Shown here piece after piece: positions 15,917-24,488 of a DNA stretch of 40,416 nucleotides. Source of the stretch: a bacterium (GTDB lineage: Bacteria; Desulfobacterota; Binatia; UBA12015). Both the position numbers and the translations under genes were made by a program. Positions within the stretch are counted from its first letter, which is position 1. Each line of letters begins with the position of its first letter. The notes under the pieces are model-generated. The model was not told the DNA's origin. It saw only the letters and a list, made by a program, of their open reading frames with translations, and ran no database searches. Where the stretch lies: contig JAUIFY010000015.1 in the NCBI GenBank assembly GCA_030430245.1, forward strand, positions 1-40,416, written 5' to 3'.

Positions 15917-16702
15917 TCAGGAGGGGTCTTTGTCCGCCCCGGTCGCGTCGGTCGCGGCCGGTGTCTCGTCGTCGTCGGCCGGCTCCATGAAGGTGTGCAG
16001 GCCGCACTCGGTCTTGCCGCTGCCGGCCCACCGTCCCGCGCGCTCGTCTTCGCCCGCCAGGATCGGGCGCGTGCAGGGCGCGCAGCCGATCGACGCATAT
16101 CCCTGCTCGAAGAGCGGGTGCGTCGGGATGTCGAAGCGCATCATGTATTCGTAGGTGTCCTTCGCGGTCCAGTTGGCGAGAGGGTTCACCTTCACGATCT
16201 CGCCGTCGGCCCGCTTGAGGCGCTCGGCGATCTTCATCCCGGCGCGGGTGCCCGCTTGGTCGCGACGCCGGCCGTTGATCCACGCGCGGACGCCGCGGAG
16301 GGCGAGCTGAAGCGGCTCGACCTTGTTGATCTTGCAGCACAGGTCGGGGTCGCGTTGATGAAGATCGTCGCCGTACTTCGCGATGAACTCCGGGCGTGGC
16401 ATGGTCGAGGTCAGGTTCTGGATGGGCAGGCCGAATCGCTCGACCAGCTCGTCCCGGTACGCGAGGGTCTCGGGGAAGTGATAGCCGGTATCGATGAAGA
16501 GGATCGGCGTGTCCGGCGCGATGTCGCGCAGCATGTGCGCGATCACGACGCCCTCGTGCTGGAACGACATGGTGAGGACCGCGTCGGTGCCGAACGTGTC
16601 GGTCACCCAGCGCAGGATCTCCCCGGGTGGCGTGGTCTCGAAGACGTCGTTTTGCGCGGCCAGATCGAGACGCGGAGCGCCATCCTTGCCGGAATCCGCC
16701 AT
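15917..16702 (-). CDS. cysH: adenylyl-sulfate (APS) reductase, assimilatory CysH family
   Basis: A 261-residue enzyme reducing adenylyl sulfate to sulfite and AMP with thioredoxin in assimilatory sulfate reduction. It has the PP-loop-related SFQHEGVV segment (about 46-53), the FIDTGYHFPET loop (69-79) and the cysteines that ligate the [4Fe-4S] cluster of the APS-specific type: Cys122-Cys123 and Cys207/Cys210 (CAPC). The catalytic cysteine is Cys233 in the conserved ECGLH motif. PAPS-type CysH lacks the cluster cysteines, so APS is the likely substrate. The C-terminal tail after the motif is acidic and probably disordered. Transcribed divergently from anmK across 71 bases; no cysDN or cysI is present in the window. 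Confidence 0.92.
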   Translation of the reverse strand: MADSGKDGAPRLDLAAQNDVFETTPPGEILRWVTDTFGTDAVLTMSFQHEGVVIAHMLRDIAPDTPILFIDTGYHFPETLAYRDELVERFGLPIQNLTSTMPRPEFIAKYGDDLHQRDPDLCCKINKVEPLQLALRGVRAWINGRRRDQAGTRAGMKIAERLKRADGEIVKVNPLANWTAKDTYEYMMRFDIPTHPLFEQGYASIGCAPCTRPILAGEDERAGRWAGSGKTECGLHTFMEPADDDETPAATDATGADKDPS

Positions 16703-16773
16703 GGGACTCGGCTACCACAGCCCCAGAACTCCGGCAATTCGCGTCTTTTTTCGAGCGTAGGAGGGGATCCGCG

Positions 16774-17922
16774 GTGCGCGCGATCGGTTTGATGTCGGGG
16801 ACGTCGCTCGACGGGATGGACGCGGCTCTCGTGCGGGTTCGGCGCCGCGCGGGTGCGGGCCCGGGGGCCTACCGCGCCACGCTGGAGGCCTTCCGCACGG
16901 TCCCCTACCCGGGTCCTCTGCGCGCGCTCGTGACCGACATCGCGCACGGAGAGGCCCGAGACGCGCGCGCGTTCGCCGACGCCGACCGTGGCGTCGCCGA
17001 GCTCGCGGCCCGCGCAGCCGCCGCAGTGGCCGCCAAGGCGGACGTGCCGCTTCGTCGCGTGGCCGTCCTCGGGAGTCACGGCCAGACCGTGTTCCACGGG
17101 CCGTCGATCGACGCCGGCCCGACCTCGATGCAGATCGGGGCTCCCGCGCGCATCGCGAACCTGACCGGCGTTCCGACCGTGGGCGACTTCCGGACGGCGG
17201 ACATGGCCGCCGGCGGTTGCGGGGCGCCGCTCATGCCGATCGTGCATCGCATGCTGGCCTCCGACCCGAGGCGACGGCGGGCGATCCAGAACCTCGGCGG
17301 CATCGGCAACGTGACGTGGCTCGGACCCGCCGGACGGGGCATGACGGCCTTCGACACGGGGCCGGGCGTGATGGTGATCGATCGGATGGCGCGCACCGTG
17401 TCGCGCGGTCGCCAGCGCTTCGACCGGGGCGGGCGTCTCGCCGAGCGCGGGCGTGTCGATCGCGTGCTGGTGACGGAGCTGCTCCGCGATCCGTACTTCC
17501 GGCGCCGTCCGCCCAAGGCGACGGGCCGTGAGGCGTTCGGCGAACCGTTCGCGCGCGTCTTCGAGGCTCGCGCCCGTGGGCGCGGGCTGCGCGGCGCGGA
17601 CCTGGTGGCGACCGCCACCGCCTTCACCGCGGCCTCGATCGCCGACCAGTATCGTCGATTCCTCGTGCCACGGCCGGGCATCGACGAGGTCCTGCTCGCC
17701 GGCGGTGGCGCGCGAAATCGGGCGCTCGTGGCAATGCTCGAGCACGAGCTCGGGGGTGTTCCGGTCCGGCCCATCGAGTCCATCGGCATCGACGGCGACG
17801 CGCTCGAGGCCGTCGGGTTCGGGATCCTGGCCGTGGCCGCGCTCGATGGGGTCCGCTTCGATCTGGCGCGGGTGACGGGCGCGAAGCGCCCGGTCCGGCT
17901 CGGTGTGATCGCCCGCCCCTGA
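16774..17922 (+). CDS. anmK: anhydro-N-acetylmuramic acid kinase
   Basis: A 382-residue kinase that opens and phosphorylates 1,6-anhydro-MurNAc, released from peptidoglycan turnover, to MurNAc-6-phosphate. Family motifs are all present: N-terminal IGLMSGTSLDGMDAAL (nucleotide-binding and catalytic Asp region), LGSHGQTVFHGP, IQNLGGIGNVTWL, AFDTGPG and LLAGGGARNRAL. The length is normal. GTG 16774 is preceded by TAGGAGGGG at 16758-16766 and places the first motif at residue 4, as in the family. The enzyme belongs with AmgK and MurU about 6 kb further on; AnmK product needs a MurNAc-6-P phosphatase (MupP-type) to feed AmgK, and none is seen here. Confidence 0.93.
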   Translation: MRAIGLMSGTSLDGMDAALVRVRRRAGAGPGAYRATLEAFRTVPYPGPLRALVTDIAHGEARDARAFADADRGVAELAARAAAAVAAKADVPLRRVAVLGSHGQTVFHGPSIDAGPTSMQIGAPARIANLTGVPTVGDFRTADMAAGGCGAPLMPIVHRMLASDPRRRRAIQNLGGIGNVTWLGPAGRGMTAFDTGPGVMVIDRMARTVSRGRQRFDRGGRLAERGRVDRVLVTELLRDPYFRRRPPKATGREAFGEPFARVFEARARGRGLRGADLVATATAFTAASIADQYRRFLVPRPGIDEVLLAGGGARNRALVAMLEHELGGVPVRPIESIGIDGDALEAVGFGILAVAALDGVRFDLARVTGAKRPVRLGVIARP

Positions 17923-19536: not shown

Positions 19537-20655
19537 ATGTCGAAGTACCTCGATGCGCTCGAGGAGATCGCTGTGAACGTCGTCGCCGCCGAGGCGACGG
19601 CGGTCGACCGGGACGGCGCGTTCCCCGAGCGCGCCCTGCGGGCCCTGCGGGAACAGGGGCTGCTGGGGCTCCTGGCCCCGACGGAGCTCGGGGGGCTCGG
19701 TGGCGGTCCGCGGGATGCCGTCACCGTCGTCGAGCGCCTCGCTCGCGAGTGCGGGTCGACGGCCATGGTCGTCTGCATGCACTACACGGCCTCTCGCGTG
19801 GTCGAGGCCTTCGGCTCGGACGAGGTCCGGAGCGCCAACGCGGCGGGCGAGCACCTTCTGACGCTCGCGTTCTCCGAGGCAGGCTCGCGCAGCCACTTCT
19901 GGGCGCCGCTCGGCACCGCCGAGGTCCGCGCCGACGAGGTGCATCTCGATGCGCGCAAGAGCTGGGTGACCTCGGCCAGCCACGCGACCGCGTACGTCTG
20001 GTCGAGCCGGCCGACCAGCGGAGCGGAGGGAAGCACTCTCTGGCTCGTCCCGTCGGACGCCGACGGACTCTCCACACCGGCGCCGTTCGACGGCCTGGGC
20101 CTGCGGGGGAACGACTCGACGCCGATCACGGCGGAGGGCGTCGTCGTGCCGCTCGCGAACCGGCTCGGGGACGATGGCGCCGGGTTTCAGATCATGCTCG
20201 ACGTGGTCCTGCCGGTGTTCAACGCAATGACGGCGGCGTGCGCCGTCGGCCTCATGGAGGGCGCGACCGCCGCCGCATGCGAGCACGCCTCCGGCACGCG
20301 CTACGAGCACCTCGACGAGAGCTTGTCGTCGCTCCCGACGATCCGAGCGTATCTCGCGCGCATGCGCATCCAGACGGATCAGACCCGCTGTCTCCTGTAC
20401 GACACGGTCGACGCGCTCGAGCGCGGTCGAGAGGACGTGATGCTCCGTGTCCTCGAAGCGAAGGCCGCGGCCGGCGAGGCGGCAACGCAGGTTCTGGACA
20501 CCGCGATGAGGGTTTGCGGCGGCGCCGCGTTTCGGCGCGACGTCGGCGTGGAGCGCCGCTTCCGCGACGCCCGCGCCGGTACGGTGATGGCTCCCACGAC
20601 GGACCAGCTCTACGACTTCATCGGCCGCGCGATCTGCGGGCTGCCGGTCTTCTGA
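19537..20655 (+). CDS. acyl-CoA dehydrogenase-fold flavoprotein (possible flavin monooxygenase)
   Basis: A 372-residue protein of the acyl-CoA dehydrogenase superfamily: N-terminal helices ending in LLGLLAPTELGGLG, a middle beta domain with TLAFSEAGSRSHF and a KSWVTSASHATAYVWSS strand, and a C-terminal helical domain ending in RRFRDARAGTVMAPTTDQLYDFIGRAICG. The final motif lacks the EGT/GTSE catalytic signature, and the helix before it has no ER motif, so neither known position of the dehydrogenase base is occupied by Glu. That pattern resembles DszC/SfnB-type flavin oxygenases more than dehydrogenases. ATG is preceded by GGAGGAG. The stop is 16 bases before the binding-fold protein gene, so the two form an operon with the diiron protein gene. 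Reaction unknown. Confidence 0.75.
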   Translation: MSKYLDALEEIAVNVVAAEATAVDRDGAFPERALRALREQGLLGLLAPTELGGLGGGPRDAVTVVERLARECGSTAMVVCMHYTASRVVEAFGSDEVRSANAAGEHLLTLAFSEAGSRSHFWAPLGTAEVRADEVHLDARKSWVTSASHATAYVWSSRPTSGAEGSTLWLVPSDADGLSTPAPFDGLGLRGNDSTPITAEGVVVPLANRLGDDGAGFQIMLDVVLPVFNAMTAACAVGLMEGATAAACEHASGTRYEHLDESLSSLPTIRAYLARMRIQTDQTRCLLYDTVDALERGREDVMLRVLEAKAAAGEAATQVLDTAMRVCGGAAFRRDVGVERRFRDARAGTVMAPTTDQLYDFIGRAICGLPVF

Positions 20656-20671
20656 CGGAAAGGAACATCCG

Positions 20672-21478
20672 ATGTCCGAAACGCTGCTTCTGGGGGCGGT
20701 GGCCTACGATGCGAAGGTCGTGACGATCTGGGACGGGTTCCAGAAGTGGTTCGCGGCGCGCGACTTCGACTTCGACTACGTCCTCTACTCGAACTACGAG
20801 CGACAGGTGGAGGGCCACTTCGCGGGCCACTTCCACGTCGCGTGGAACTCGCCCCTGGCGTGGCTTCAGGCCAGGGCGGTCGCGGAGCGTCTGGGTCGCA
20901 GCGCGGCAGCCGTCGCGATGCGCGACACCGACTGTGATCTGACCAGCGTGATCGTCGTGCGCGCCGACTCGGAAATCGCGTCGGTCGAAGACCTGCGCGG
21001 CAAGACCGTCGGGGTCGGTGCGGGGGACTCGCCCCAGGCGACCCTCATCCCGCTCGTCCATCTGGACGACTTGGGGCTCGCACCGGATCGCGACTTCACG
21101 GTGCGCCGTTTCGACGTCCTCGTCGGCAAACACGGGGATCACGTCGGGGGGGAGAGGGACGCCGCACAGGCGCTTCTCGCGGGCGAGGTCGACGCGGCCT
21201 GCATGATCGACGGAAACCACTTCGTGTTCGGGAAGGACGGAACGCTCCCGAGCGGCTCGACCCGAATTCTTTCGCAGACGGGAGACTACGACCACTGCAA
21301 CTTCACGGTCCTCGACGACGCGCCCGACGCTCTGGTGCAGCGCTTCGTGGCGCTTCTGCACTCGATGGATTTCGCCAAGCCGGGACGAACGGACCACTAC
21401 GGGCTGCTCGAACGGTCGATCGCCCGGTTCGGCACGATCGACGACTTCGTGGACCGCGTCGCCCGTACGCATCGGTGA
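20672..21478 (+). CDS. PhnD-like periplasmic-binding-fold protein lacking a signal peptide
   Basis: A 268-residue type II periplasmic-binding-protein fold of the phosphate/phosphonate-binding (PhnD) group: the N-terminal strand LLLGAVAYDAKVVTIWDGF, a HVAWNSPLAWL segment like the PhnD 'W-x-x-PL' helix, VEDLRGKTVGVG with a following DSPQAT ligand loop, and a GEVDAACMIDGN hinge segment. The protein starts directly at the first strand with no signal sequence or lipobox, and no ABC permease or ATPase gene is nearby. It therefore probably works in the cytoplasm, as a sensor, carrier or enzyme; DszB and Thi5/NMT1 are known enzymes with this fold. An AAAGGAAC site precedes ATG. The stop overlaps the next start (GTGA, 21475-21478), showing translational coupling. 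Confidence 0.8.
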   Translation: MSETLLLGAVAYDAKVVTIWDGFQKWFAARDFDFDYVLYSNYERQVEGHFAGHFHVAWNSPLAWLQARAVAERLGRSAAAVAMRDTDCDLTSVIVVRADSEIASVEDLRGKTVGVGAGDSPQATLIPLVHLDDLGLAPDRDFTVRRFDVLVGKHGDHVGGERDAAQALLAGEVDAACMIDGNHFVFGKDGTLPSGSTRILSQTGDYDHCNFTVLDDAPDALVQRFVALLHSMDFAKPGRTDHYGLLERSIARFGTIDDFVDRVARTHR

Positions 21479-22653
21479 AGCACCTCGACCTCGAGAGCCT
21501 GGGCTTCGACGAGGGCGCGCATCTTCTCGTCAAGCACGCCCTGGTCGGCCTCCGTCCCGGGGAGCGCCTCTCGGTGACCGGCGCCGCGCCGTCGCTGACC
21601 GTTCACCTACGCGCGTGGTGCCGCGGCCTGGGGCACGGCTTCGAGCCGCATTCGGGTGACCAGGGGGGGGTCGTTCGCCGGGGCGCGGCCGACGTCGGGC
21701 GATGGCGCGGTGCCGACCTCGCCGGATCGCCCGACGACGTCGCGGAGGAGGCCCCGTCGCACTGGGGCCTCGGCGCGCGTGGCTGCACCGTCGAGGCCGG
21801 CGCGCCCGAGTACGGGTTCGCGCTTCGCTCCCGCGACGAGGTCTGGGCGGAGGACGCGCCGCGTCTCTACGCGCAGGGCGTGGCCGCGCAGTGGGATCCG
21901 GCCACCGCAGTCCCGTGGGACGCCCCGTTCGATCTCGACGACGAGGTCGAGGATGCGGTGGTGCAGGTCATGACGTACCTGATCGAGAACGAGACGGCGG
22001 CGCTCGTCGTCCCCGCCCGGTTCGCGTCGCAAGTCCATCCCCACTACCGCGAGGTGCTCCAGCTGCTCGCCCTCCAGGCGGCGGACGAGGCCCGGCACAT
22101 CGAGGTCTTCACGCGCCGGGCCCTCCTTCGCCGCGAGCGGCCCGGGCTGTCGACGGTCGGGGGGCAGGCGTCGCTCAAGACGCTCGTGGACGAGCGGGAG
22201 TTCGCCGAGGCCACGCTTCTTCTGTCCGTCCTGGGTGAAGGCAGCTTCCTCGTGCTGCTTCACTTCCTCCACGAGCACGGGCCGGATCCGGTCACGCGGG
22301 AGATCTGCCGTCTCGCCGCCCAGGACGAGGCCCGCCACGTCGCCTTCGGCGTGTCCCATCTCGCGGAGCAGGCCCGTCGGGCGCCGGCTCTGCTCGGGCG
22401 TTTGGAGAGCTGCGTTCGCCGCCGGCACGACGCGCTTGCCACGACGGCGGGGCTCAACGAGGAGGTGTTCGACGCTCTCGTCGTCCTCGCGGCCGGGAGC
22501 TGGACGTCGTCCGCGCTCCGCGAGGGATGGAAGCGGGTGCAGGCCCTCGAGCGAGCGATGCACCAAGGCCGAAAGCTCCGGCTCGCGCGGATCGGCTTCG
22601 ACGATGCCGCTGCGGAGGAGCTGGCGGGGCTCCACACCAGGAACTTCATGTGA
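21475..22653 (+). CDS. TusA-like domain fused to a diiron ferritin-like oxygenase domain
   Basis: A 392-residue protein from GTG 21475, which overlaps the previous stop by four bases. Residues 1-58 resemble TusA/SirA (LESLGFDEGAHLLVKHAL, GLRPGERLSVTG, LRAWCRGLGHGF), but the catalytic Cys-Pro of TusA is replaced by Asp-Glu. A linker follows to about 155. Residues 158-300 form a ferritin-like four-helix unit with a full set of carboxylate/His ligands: Glu171 or Glu173 (LIENET), Glu205-His208 (DEARH), Glu255 (LGEGSF) and Glu285-His288 (DEARH). Two E-x-x-H motifs with separate Glu partners are the hallmark of a non-heme diiron site that activates oxygen. The C-terminal helices are unassigned. It probably works on the same substrate as the two preceding gene products; substrate unknown. 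Confidence 0.75.
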   Translation: MKHLDLESLGFDEGAHLLVKHALVGLRPGERLSVTGAAPSLTVHLRAWCRGLGHGFEPHSGDQGGVVRRGAADVGRWRGADLAGSPDDVAEEAPSHWGLGARGCTVEAGAPEYGFALRSRDEVWAEDAPRLYAQGVAAQWDPATAVPWDAPFDLDDEVEDAVVQVMTYLIENETAALVVPARFASQVHPHYREVLQLLALQAADEARHIEVFTRRALLRRERPGLSTVGGQASLKTLVDEREFAEATLLLSVLGEGSFLVLLHFLHEHGPDPVTREICRLAAQDEARHVAFGVSHLAEQARRAPALLGRLESCVRRRHDALATTAGLNEEVFDALVVLAAGSWTSSALREGWKRVQALERAMHQGRKLRLARIGFDDAAAEELAGLHTRNFM

Positions 22654-22692: not shown

Positions 22693-23451
22693 CTACGTGC
22701 GGGCGAGCGCGTCCATGTAGGAGGGGAGGCCGTCGCGGACGAGGGCCCTCTCGGTGACCACGAGGTCGTCGATGGTGTCGGCGGTGTGCCAGCGGCCGTC
22801 GTATCGGTAGCCGCAGAGGGCGGCTCCCGCCTCGAACAGCTTGGGATAGAGGCCGTGCATCGAGCTGAAGGCGCCGTCGGGCATCTCGTCCACGATGCGC
22901 GGGGAGAGGATTTGCACCGAGGCGAACATGTACTCGGGCAGCCCGGGCGGGGCGCCGCGGCCGAGGAACCGGCGGATCCGTCCCCCGTCGTCGATCCCGA
23001 ACACCCCGTATTGGTCCTTTTGGGGGTCGTCCCGCAACACGAACGTCGCGAGGGCGTCGCGCGCCTCGTGGAACGCGAGCACGTCGGGCAACGGCACCTC
23101 CGAGATGACGTCCGAGTTGAGGACGACGAGCGGTCGATCGATCGGAGCCTCGAAGACGGTGGCGGCCTGGCGAATCCCCCCGCCGCTGTCGAGGAGCTCG
23201 TCTTCGACCGAGTAGCGGATGCGGACCCCGTAGCGAGAGCCGTCGCCGAGTGCGGACTGCACGCGGTCGGCGAGGTGGTGCACGTTGATCACGACGTCCT
23301 CGATGCCGTGAGCGCGGAGGAGGCCGAGGCCGTAGGCGATGAGGGGGTAGCCCGCGACCTCGACGAGGGGTTTCGGTGTCGTGTCGGTGAGGGGGCGCAG
23401 ACGGGAGCCGAGGCCCGCGGCGAGGATGATCGCGTGTGCGCGGGCCGTCAT
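22693..23451 (-). CDS. murU: MurU-like sugar-1-phosphate nucleotidyltransferase
   Basis: A 252-residue nucleotidyltransferase with the N-terminal signature AIILAAGLGSRLRPLTDTTPKPLVEVAG, the metal-binding NSDV near residue 105 and a late FASVQILSPRI segment. In the MurNAc recycling route, MurU joins MurNAc-1-phosphate to UMP, giving UDP-MurNAc and bypassing fosfomycin-sensitive MurA. The assignment rests on coupling to AmgK: the ATG at 23451 overlaps the amgK stop by four bases (ATGA), and the pair occurs in this order in known systems. By itself, the sequence could also be a glucose-1-P or heptose-1-P transferase. The open frame continues far upstream of 23451, but that extension is Arg-rich antisense of amgK and is not used. 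Confidence 0.8.
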   Translation of the reverse strand: MTARAHAIILAAGLGSRLRPLTDTTPKPLVEVAGYPLIAYGLGLLRAHGIEDVVINVHHLADRVQSALGDGSRYGVRIRYSVEDELLDSGGGIRQAATVFEAPIDRPLVVLNSDVISEVPLPDVLAFHEARDALATFVLRDDPQKDQYGVFGIDDGGRIRRFLGRGAPPGLPEYMFASVQILSPRIVDEMPDGAFSSMHGLYPKLFEAGAALCGYRYDGRWHTADTIDDLVVTERALVRDGLPSYMDALART

Positions 23452-24488
23452 GCGAAATGGGGGCTCCGGTCGGCGAGAATGTGCGCGAGGGGGGATGCGT
23501 CGAGCGCCTCGAGCGCGCGCTTGGTCTGGTGCGCCATTCGCGGGATGTACGGAAGATATCGCTTCACGCCGTCCTCGATCGCGAGCCAGCGAAAGCGCCC
23601 GATCACTCGGAGCGTGCGGAAGACGACGCAGGCGAAGTAGTCGCGTTCGAGCATCGTGCGATCGGTGTAGAGGTCGACGCCGGCGTCCGCGAGCGCTGCG
23701 TGCAGCGCGCCGAGGAGGAAGCTCTCGCGCGCCGGTGTGATGAAGCGGTCGCTGTCGCGATCGGTGCAGAAGCTCGCGACGTCGTACATGGGCGGGCCGA
23801 GCATCGCGTCCTGGAAGTCGATCACGCGCAGGTCGCCGCGAGTGTCGACGTGCAGATTCCATGCGTGGAAGTCCCGGTGCATGAGCCGCCGGGGCTGGAG
23901 GGCGATCGTGGCGCCGAGCTCGTCGAGCGCGGCTGCCGCCTCCGGATCGTCTCCGCGACCGCGCGGCGGTCCGTCGTCGGCGGCCGCGAGTCCGTGCGTC
24001 AGGACGACGTCGAGCTCGCGGCGGATCAGGGTCTCGTCGTGGCTTCGGTCGAACGCCACGCAGTCCCGAGATCCTCCCGACGCGGTGAGGTCGGCGAGGA
24101 GCCGGGCGACCTGAGTCAGGCGGCGCTCGGCCTCGGCCTCGGTGGTCGCCGGCGAGGCGAGCACGTCGGCGAGCGGCGCCTCGCCGGCGTCGTCGAGGAG
24201 CAGCGCTCCGAGATCGCGGTCGCGGACGGCGTAGACGGCTGGCACCGCGATCCCGCGTGACGCGAGGTAGCGCGCGACGTTCGCGAAGGGCAGCTCCGGT
24301 GCCTCCGCGGGAGTCGGCACCGGCAGGATCATCGCGATCGCGGTCGCCGGCGCGCCCGGCCCGTCCAGACGGAGACGCACGTAGCGCCGCGTCGAGGCGT
24401 CGCCGGCGAGCCCCTCCTCGCCGGTGACGATCGCACCTGGAAAACGGCCCTCGACCAGCTCTGCTAAAGTGCCGCCCCGGTTTGACAT
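23448..24488 (-). CDS. amgK: AmgK-like N-acetylmuramate/N-acetylglucosamine 1-kinase
   Basis: A 346-residue aminoglycoside-phosphotransferase-fold kinase. It shows the N-lobe opening GDASTRRYVRLRL (29-41), the Brenner motif LMHRDFHAWNLHV with Asp206 and Asn211, and the metal-binding VIDFQDAMLGPPMYDVASF with Asp224. This set and the downstream murU identify AmgK, which phosphorylates MurNAc at C1 in the anabolic recycling pathway described in Pseudomonas. The ATG lies at 24486-24488 and overlaps a candidate -35 element of the opposite nuo operon, so the two transcription units share about 70 bases. An alternative is another APH-family sugar kinase. Confidence 0.85.
   Translation of the reverse strand: MSNRGGTLAELVEGRFPGAIVTGEEGLAGDASTRRYVRLRLDGPGAPATAIAMILPVPTPAEAPELPFANVARYLASRGIAVPAVYAVRDRDLGALLLDDAGEAPLADVLASPATTEAEAERRLTQVARLLADLTASGGSRDCVAFDRSHDETLIRRELDVVLTHGLAAADDGPPRGRGDDPEAAAALDELGATIALQPRRLMHRDFHAWNLHVDTRGDLRVIDFQDAMLGPPMYDVASFCTDRDSDRFITPARESFLLGALHAALADAGVDLYTDRTMLERDYFACVVFRTLRVIGRFRWLAIEDGVKRYLPYIPRMAHQTKRALEALDASPLAHILADRSPHFA

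Follow-up and report, generated by a model that had tools for sequence, protein, structure and literature searches.

The stretch of DNA analysed here (the window, 40,416 nucleotides of contig JAUIFY010000015.1, assembly GCA_030430245.1, from a bacterium of the Binatia in the Desulfobacterota) carries a compact set of three genes, referred to below as the triad, which on the comparative evidence is very probably linked to selenium use. Its members, the second of which resembles a substrate-binding protein (SBP), are:

19537..20655, forward strand: gene 1, a flavoprotein of the acyl-CoA dehydrogenase (ACAD) fold, 372 amino acids; a distant member of the FadE16/Rv1679 family, kept in triad loci
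20672..21478, forward strand: gene 2, a cytosolic PhnD/PtxB-like binding-fold protein (the SBP), 268 amino acids; a distant member of the Rv1680 SBP-like family
21475..22653, forward strand: gene 3, a TusA-like domain fused to a ferritin-like diiron domain, 392 amino acids, GTG start

In the list of open reading frames, genes 1 and 2 are separated by 16 bases, genes 2 and 3 overlap by 4 bases, and all three are co-directional. The first-pass annotation of this DNA had described the same positions and spacing and had proposed an ACAD fold, a PhnD-like protein and a TusA-diiron fusion. Both parts of that description held, the latter through Pfam and NCBIfam matches, and the weak calls for gene 3 became firmer across orthologs.

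In order to assess how widely the set is kept, we used the SBP to scan bacteria and archaea (one genome per species); this gave at least 544 relatives, from which the best 80 loci were retrieved. The ACAD gene lies immediately 5′ of the SBP gene in 71 of these 80 and the diiron gene immediately 3′ in 72, while all three are contiguous and in the same order in 64 (4 of the exceptions are contig ends). A lack of co-occurrence of the three families in other genomes had been named beforehand as one result that would refute the idea of a functional set; this refutation did not come about, and the recurrence in 64 of the best 80 loci exceeds chance. Within the same class, the identical trio and order are seen in three further genomes, with identities of 75–77%, 56–64% and 40–45%. 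Hosts named in the records include Nitrosomonas, Planctomycetota, Myxococcota (Myxococcales), Acidobacteriota (Acidobacteria) and Burkholderiales, and further Variovorax, Hydrogenophaga, Caulobacteraceae, Acidimicrobiia and Eremiobacterota. Thus, the triad is a real, conserved unit across many bacterial phyla. Conserved neighbours, a check that the first-pass annotation had suggested, were also sought: no family was conserved beyond single clades among the fetched triad loci, so that the triad appears as a self-contained cassette. Selenium genes were found at some loci.

Variants of the set were also seen. At six Caulobacteraceae loci (L074, L075, L078, L082, L093 and L094) the SBP-diiron pair has no ACAD gene inside the flank, and some of these have a short-chain dehydrogenase/reductase or rhodanese gene upstream. 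In an actinobacterial version, on Miltoncostaea and Mycolicibacterium plasmids (L019:10844-14844 and L021:10855-13814), the ACAD-SBP pair is followed by radical S-adenosylmethionine (SAM) genes; in Miltoncostaea the diiron gene is replaced by a hypothetical gene and then a radical SAM gene, and no match to the diiron protein was found among plasmids. Upstream of this version lie carboxymuconolactone-decarboxylase-like genes, together with DoxX (Miltoncostaea) or a deiodinase-like gene (Mycolicibacterium). A match to the SBP in genome G034 was rejected as a triad member, being an ordinary exported PhnD-type protein.

The first link to selenium came from gene order. At one Variovorax locus (L070) the order is fdhABC-fdhE-selA-[ACAD-SBP-diiron]-selB, followed by selD on the opposite strand; a PhnD-type ABC transporter, selU and fdhD lie further downstream, and this transporter set has its own exported SBP, separate from that of the triad. 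The triad also sits between selA and selB at the other Variovorax loci, in Hydrogenophaga (L084) and in Pseudacidovorax (L100). At a second Hydrogenophaga locus (L069) the triad comes after selA, with selB a few genes further downstream, in Eremiobacterota (L081) selD directly follows the triad, and about 7 kb separate the ACAD-SBP pair of Miltoncostaea from selABD. As a separate observation, a planctomycete locus (L115:5661-9348) carries a second, long SelD whose neighbour is a glycosyltransferase-like gene of the DUF2064 type, an arrangement shared with Miltoncostaea L019; this pair is possibly a seleno- or arsenosugar cluster.

Genome content gave the second link. The selD gene scored over its family cut-off in 49 of 50 triad genomes, and the exception (G069) has selB and selU, so all 50 are selenium users. 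In its occurrence only among selenium users, judged without tree correction, and in its linkage to sel genes, the triad has the distribution of a selenium metabolism gene. Among 81 Nitrosomonas genomes the diiron gene occurs in 14 (one a partial match) and selD in 42. SelD is of two types in this genus, a frame of about 730 amino acids, which we interpret as the previously described fusion to an NADH-dehydrogenase-like domain (PMC4561486), and a standalone form of about 350, and the triad occurs only with the long form: this is present in 17 genomes, all 14 diiron carriers among them, and the other 64 have no diiron gene. Long frames were located at L105:8754-10940, L106:8611-10797 and L107:7665-9851, with selU near all three. 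The window's own genome (G000) has SelD within a frame of 861 amino acids (G000:C127:15422-16339).

All carriers were selD-positive in the three remaining sets as well, namely Planctomycetota (10 carriers in 199 genomes, selD background 67%), relatives of the window's genome (4 in 39) and Burkholderiales (5 in 300); with a background of about 71–72%, the last was discarded as an uninformative selD control. Over the four sets Fisher's method gives P of about 3e-5, and the Nitrosomonas fusion alone gives P of 4e-13; both values ignore shared ancestry, whose effect is greatest within Nitrosomonas, and the sets overlap slightly, as Nitrosomonas genomes are in the Burkholderiales draw. By selenium trait, the 50 triad genomes divide into 20 with SelB only, 11 with SelU only (all of the Nitrosomonas group), 12 with both and 7 with neither. 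Three of these 7 have an in-frame TGA in selD, and therefore the selenocysteine machinery is probably just absent from the assembly. Since the triad is common to selenocysteine-only and selenouridine-only users, this distribution suggests a step at or before SelD.

The gene 1 product matches the N, M and C domains of ACAD in Pfam (E values of 1e-10 to 5e-19), and has the ACAD fold. It scores 434 bits (E 3.8e-130) against NF049984 (FadE16/Rv1679), below the 600-bit cut-off, and by this measure it is a relative of that family, not an equivalog. Of the named families, dehydrogenases and 3-sulfinopropanoyl-CoA desulfinase (115 bits) are closer to it than DszC is (44 bits). One residue is of particular interest:

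20590..20592, forward strand: Ala352, replacing the catalytic Glu of the YEG motif ('vmapt' aligned with 'iyega' of SBCAD, 2jif)

Ala352, Pro353 and Thr354 are each at least 95% conserved in 77 ACAD orthologs. The location that we take to be that of the alternative, isovaleryl-CoA-type Glu holds a conserved LPxF stretch, again without Glu. Because a conserved alanine sits where dehydrogenases have the catalytic Glu, the protein is unlikely to be a typical acyl-CoA dehydrogenase.

The gene 2 product matches the Phosphonate-bd family (PF12974, E 1.1e-27) and reaches 198 bits against NF049985 (Rv1680 SBP-like), below the 400-bit cut-off. As had been claimed from the sequence, it lacks an export signal (in the structure model the first strand begins at residue 5), and no ABC transporter genes stand beside it in the window; it thus has neither feature of an ABC-transporter SBP, export signal or permease and ATPase partners. 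The structure was modelled on the ortholog from a sister genome (predicted local distance difference test score, pLDDT, 95.1), and the model is closest to PtxB (Z 24.2) and PhnD (Z in the range 23–24), with the arsenic sensors ArrX and AioX also matching. The residues of the putative pocket are:

20795..20797, forward strand: Tyr42, pocket residue; invariant, aligned with the PtxB/PhnD tyrosine
21029..21031, forward strand: Ser120, oxyanion-loop residue; invariant, aligned with the PtxB 'STSS' loop
21131..21133, forward strand: His154, pocket histidine; invariant, aligned with the PtxB 'GTH/GAH' histidine
21290..21298, forward strand: Asp207-His208-Cys209, candidate specificity motif; Asp207 and His208 at least 95% conserved

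By this alignment, the SBP retains the pocket residues of the PhnD/PtxB oxyanion type; the histidine equivalent to His154 contacts the ligand in PhnD and AioX (PMC5908839). Cys209 is invariant in 85 of 85 orthologs, and the Asp-His-Cys stretch is a candidate for the specificity side of the pocket, as judged from its alignment with the stretch taken for that side. A bond between a thiol and an oxyanion has a precedent in the SBP fold, because AioX uses a cysteine, at a different position, to bind arsenite (PMC5908839). Arsenic sensing itself was considered for the SBP, given the fold shared with AioX and ArrX, and was rejected as no neighbour family is conserved outside single clades. We also rejected selenocysteine within the triad: the stop in the SBP gene of L094 is a TAG at residue 130, and not a TGA at a Cys. 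The window SBP lacks 16 residues (the RPLLxLEGLKxW region; 48 bases, in frame) after residue 237, at window position 21383, a stretch that is well conserved among orthologs, the sister genome included. The gap may be a natural deletion weakening this copy, or an assembly error.

The gene 3 product has Pfam matches to AurF (PF11583, E 1.1e-5) and TusA (PF01206, E 0.0078), both under the curated cut-offs. Among 56 orthologs, AurF is matched at E of 0.01 or lower in 37 (best 1.3e-9) and TusA in 26 (best 5.4e-8). The model of this protein (pLDDT 95.2) and its alignment yield the following features:

21481..21654, forward strand: TusA-like N-terminal domain, residues ~3–60; PF01206 in 26 of 56 orthologs
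21865..22650, forward strand: diiron domain, residues ~131–392; fold matches to cyanobacterial aldehyde-deformylating oxygenase (ADO) and to VlmB
21985..21993, forward strand: Glu171/Glu173 (ENE), first-helix glutamates; invariant, one a likely diiron ligand
22087..22098, forward strand: Glu205xxHis208, putative diiron ligand motif; invariant
22237..22239, forward strand: Glu255, putative third-helix diiron ligand; invariant
22327..22338, forward strand: Glu285xxHis288, putative diiron ligand motif; Glu285 invariant, His288 at least 90%

The predicted fold is a bundle of four helices carrying two ExxH motifs and two additional glutamates, which is the layout of a ferritin-like diiron oxygenase, and the domain superposes on ADO (Z 21.4, root-mean-square deviation 2.3, 214 residues) and on VlmB (Z 21.0, 249 residues). 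The TusA-like domain lacks the usual catalytic cysteine: LGLDxGGHLL occupies the position at which, presumably, the CPxP motif of TusA would fall, the first cysteine is missing, and the second Cys position is a Cys in 60 of 77 orthologs.

It seems possible, and this is the reading that we tentatively prefer, that the triad is a mobile, self-contained, O2-dependent module for selenium supply which acts at or before the selenophosphate synthetase SelD. Taken by itself, its placement at or upstream of SelD is about evenly balanced. Mechanistically, the diiron oxygenase, similar to ADO and VlmB, together with the ACAD-fold flavoprotein, which lacks the dehydrogenase base, would oxidise a selenium compound, most likely an organic one or one otherwise not directly usable, and cleave a bond to selenium. 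The cytosolic SBP would then hold a small selenium species in its PhnD-type oxyanion pocket, probably via Cys209, and pass it on to reduction and then to SelD, with the TusA-like domain in a docking or carrying role. This particular oxidative-release chemistry is doubtful. We regard as similarly uncertain, and rather unlikely in all its parts, a new pathway of dedicated aerobic selenium assimilation, in which selenium freed with O2 from an organic or bound form reaches SelD by way of a TusA-diiron oxygenase and a selenium-oxyanion carrier of the PhnD type in the cytosol. Two points speak for a role that depends on O2. Carriers with named taxa belong mostly to groups that are generally aerobic, and a radical SAM enzyme replaces the diiron enzyme in the related actinobacterial set, swaps between O2-dependent and O2-independent enzymes for one step being known.

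Several observations weigh against a supply role. The selenium evidence is entirely correlative. In three of the four sets, 67–71% of the triad-free genomes have selD. With selD so frequent in the groups sampled, discrimination comes from Nitrosomonas and Planctomycetota alone, and the carriers within Nitrosomonas could all belong to a single clade. The triad is dispensable, as most selD-bearing genomes do without it, and outside Burkholderiales, Eremiobacterota and Miltoncostaea (the latter with the ACAD-SBP pair only) no sel genes were found within 10 kb. The metagenome-assembled genome (MAG) of the window itself (87.5% complete) is selD-positive, with no SelB over the cut-off and no SelU. 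Finally, the same ACAD-SBP pair goes with a radical SAM gene in actinobacteria, and M. tuberculosis is not known to have selD.

Other explanations share part of this evidence. The triad could act downstream of SelD, using selenophosphate to make or modify a small molecule or cofactor that contains selenium, as an extra trait resembling selenoneine. This is unlikely, although it predicts the selenium association equally, small-molecule pathways often use oxygenases and flavoproteins, and four genomes (G000, G049, G076 and G087) combine a non-selenoprotein SelD with no SelB or SelU matches. A further SelD-dependent trait based on such orphan SelD genes was considered and set aside, as these are only 4 of the 50 genomes, all of them MAGs. 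SelB or SelU is present in 43 of 50 carriers, however, and most of the remaining genomes are incomplete assemblies; among triad loci, neither a glycosyltransferase nor a methyltransferase is a conserved neighbour, and the insertion between selA and selB fits the selenocysteine pathway better. A general sulfur, phosphorus or thiol pathway akin to mycobacterial Rv1679-Rv1681, with selenium users enriched through lifestyle (large aerobic genomes), is likewise unlikely. The ACAD and SBP fall in the Rv1679 and Rv1680 families, and two actinobacterial plasmid loci bear DoxX, or a deiodinase-like protein with radical SAM, rather than sel genes; such a pathway would, however, leave unexplained both the position between selA and selB and the 14 of 14 match to one SelD type within a single genus of similar lifestyle.

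It is rather improbable that the triad serves selenium homeostasis or detoxification in place of supply, by oxidising and sequestering excess or reactive selenium (selenide, selenite or methylated selenium). The same linkage to selenium and the combination of two redox/oxygen enzymes with a thiol-bearing oxyanion-binding protein would suit it, but the triad would then be expected in selD-less genomes too, and in no sampled set was the diiron gene found there. Very improbable is organosulfur desulfurisation of the DszC/DszB kind, an analogy with dibenzothiophene desulfurisation that the first-pass annotation had drawn from the ACAD and binding folds. The desulfinase match of gene 1 is in its favour, but the DszC score is weak beside that for FadE16, the SBP is nearer to PhnD/PtxB than to DszB, and sulfur-scavenging neighbours are lacking. 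The cysH gene 3 kb away, cited at that stage as weak support, is not a conserved neighbour, being found at only 2–3 Nitrosomonas loci, 3–10 kb from the triad. Of the broader proposal, an oxidative route on a small sulfur- or phosphorus-containing molecule, a small chalcogen or oxyanion substrate remains plausible, but the best lead is now selenium and not organosulfur.

Among known systems, mycobacterial Rv1679 (FadE16)-Rv1680-Rv1681 (MoeX) has members of these two families, ACAD and signal-less SBP, arranged in the order seen in the triad. It differs in its third gene, a radical SAM gene instead of the TusA-diiron fusion, and the triad scores below the NCBIfam cut-offs. No function for Rv1679-Rv1681 emerged from the papers searched, where only antigen, biomarker and proteomics studies turned up, and the sources covered contain ACAD-SBP pairs only in the form of uncharacterised families from mycobacteria. 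Cyanobacterial ADO and the azoxy synthase VlmB resemble the diiron domain in fold (Z 21) and in the complete E...ExxH...E...ExxH ligand pattern; they differ in identity (14–22%), in gene context and in the TusA-like domain added in gene 3. PhnD, PtxB, HtxB, AioX and ArrX are like the SBP in fold (Z up to 24) and in the pocket Tyr, Ser and His, whereas the triad protein is without a signal peptide, has no ABC genes beside it in the window and carries an invariant Asp-His-Cys motif. Of the known selenium accessory proteins, YedF is TusA/SirA-like. The accessory genes YedE, YedF, DUF3343 and LysR_Se are, like the triad, linked to selD by gene context and thought to act near selenium supply, but they belong to other protein families (Lin et al. 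2015, PMC5322559). The terms 'acyl-CoA' and 'diiron' are absent from the text of that paper (PMC5322559), and no description of the full trio or of its association with selenium was found in the open-licence papers searched. According to a 2026 review, prokaryotes are without any identified specific high-affinity selenium transport system (PMC13188914). If the supply reading is true, a widespread O2-dependent trio would provide ammonia oxidisers, soil bacteria and other aerobes with a selenium route of their own, and it would suggest a role for protein families, mycobacterial Rv1679 and Rv1680 included, for which we found none.

The surroundings of the triad in the window are not kept at other triad loci. 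Here it is flanked by peptidoglycan-recycling genes, with AnmK on one side and MurU- and AmgK-like genes on the other (window 16627-17919 and 22693-24488), followed by the nuo operon.

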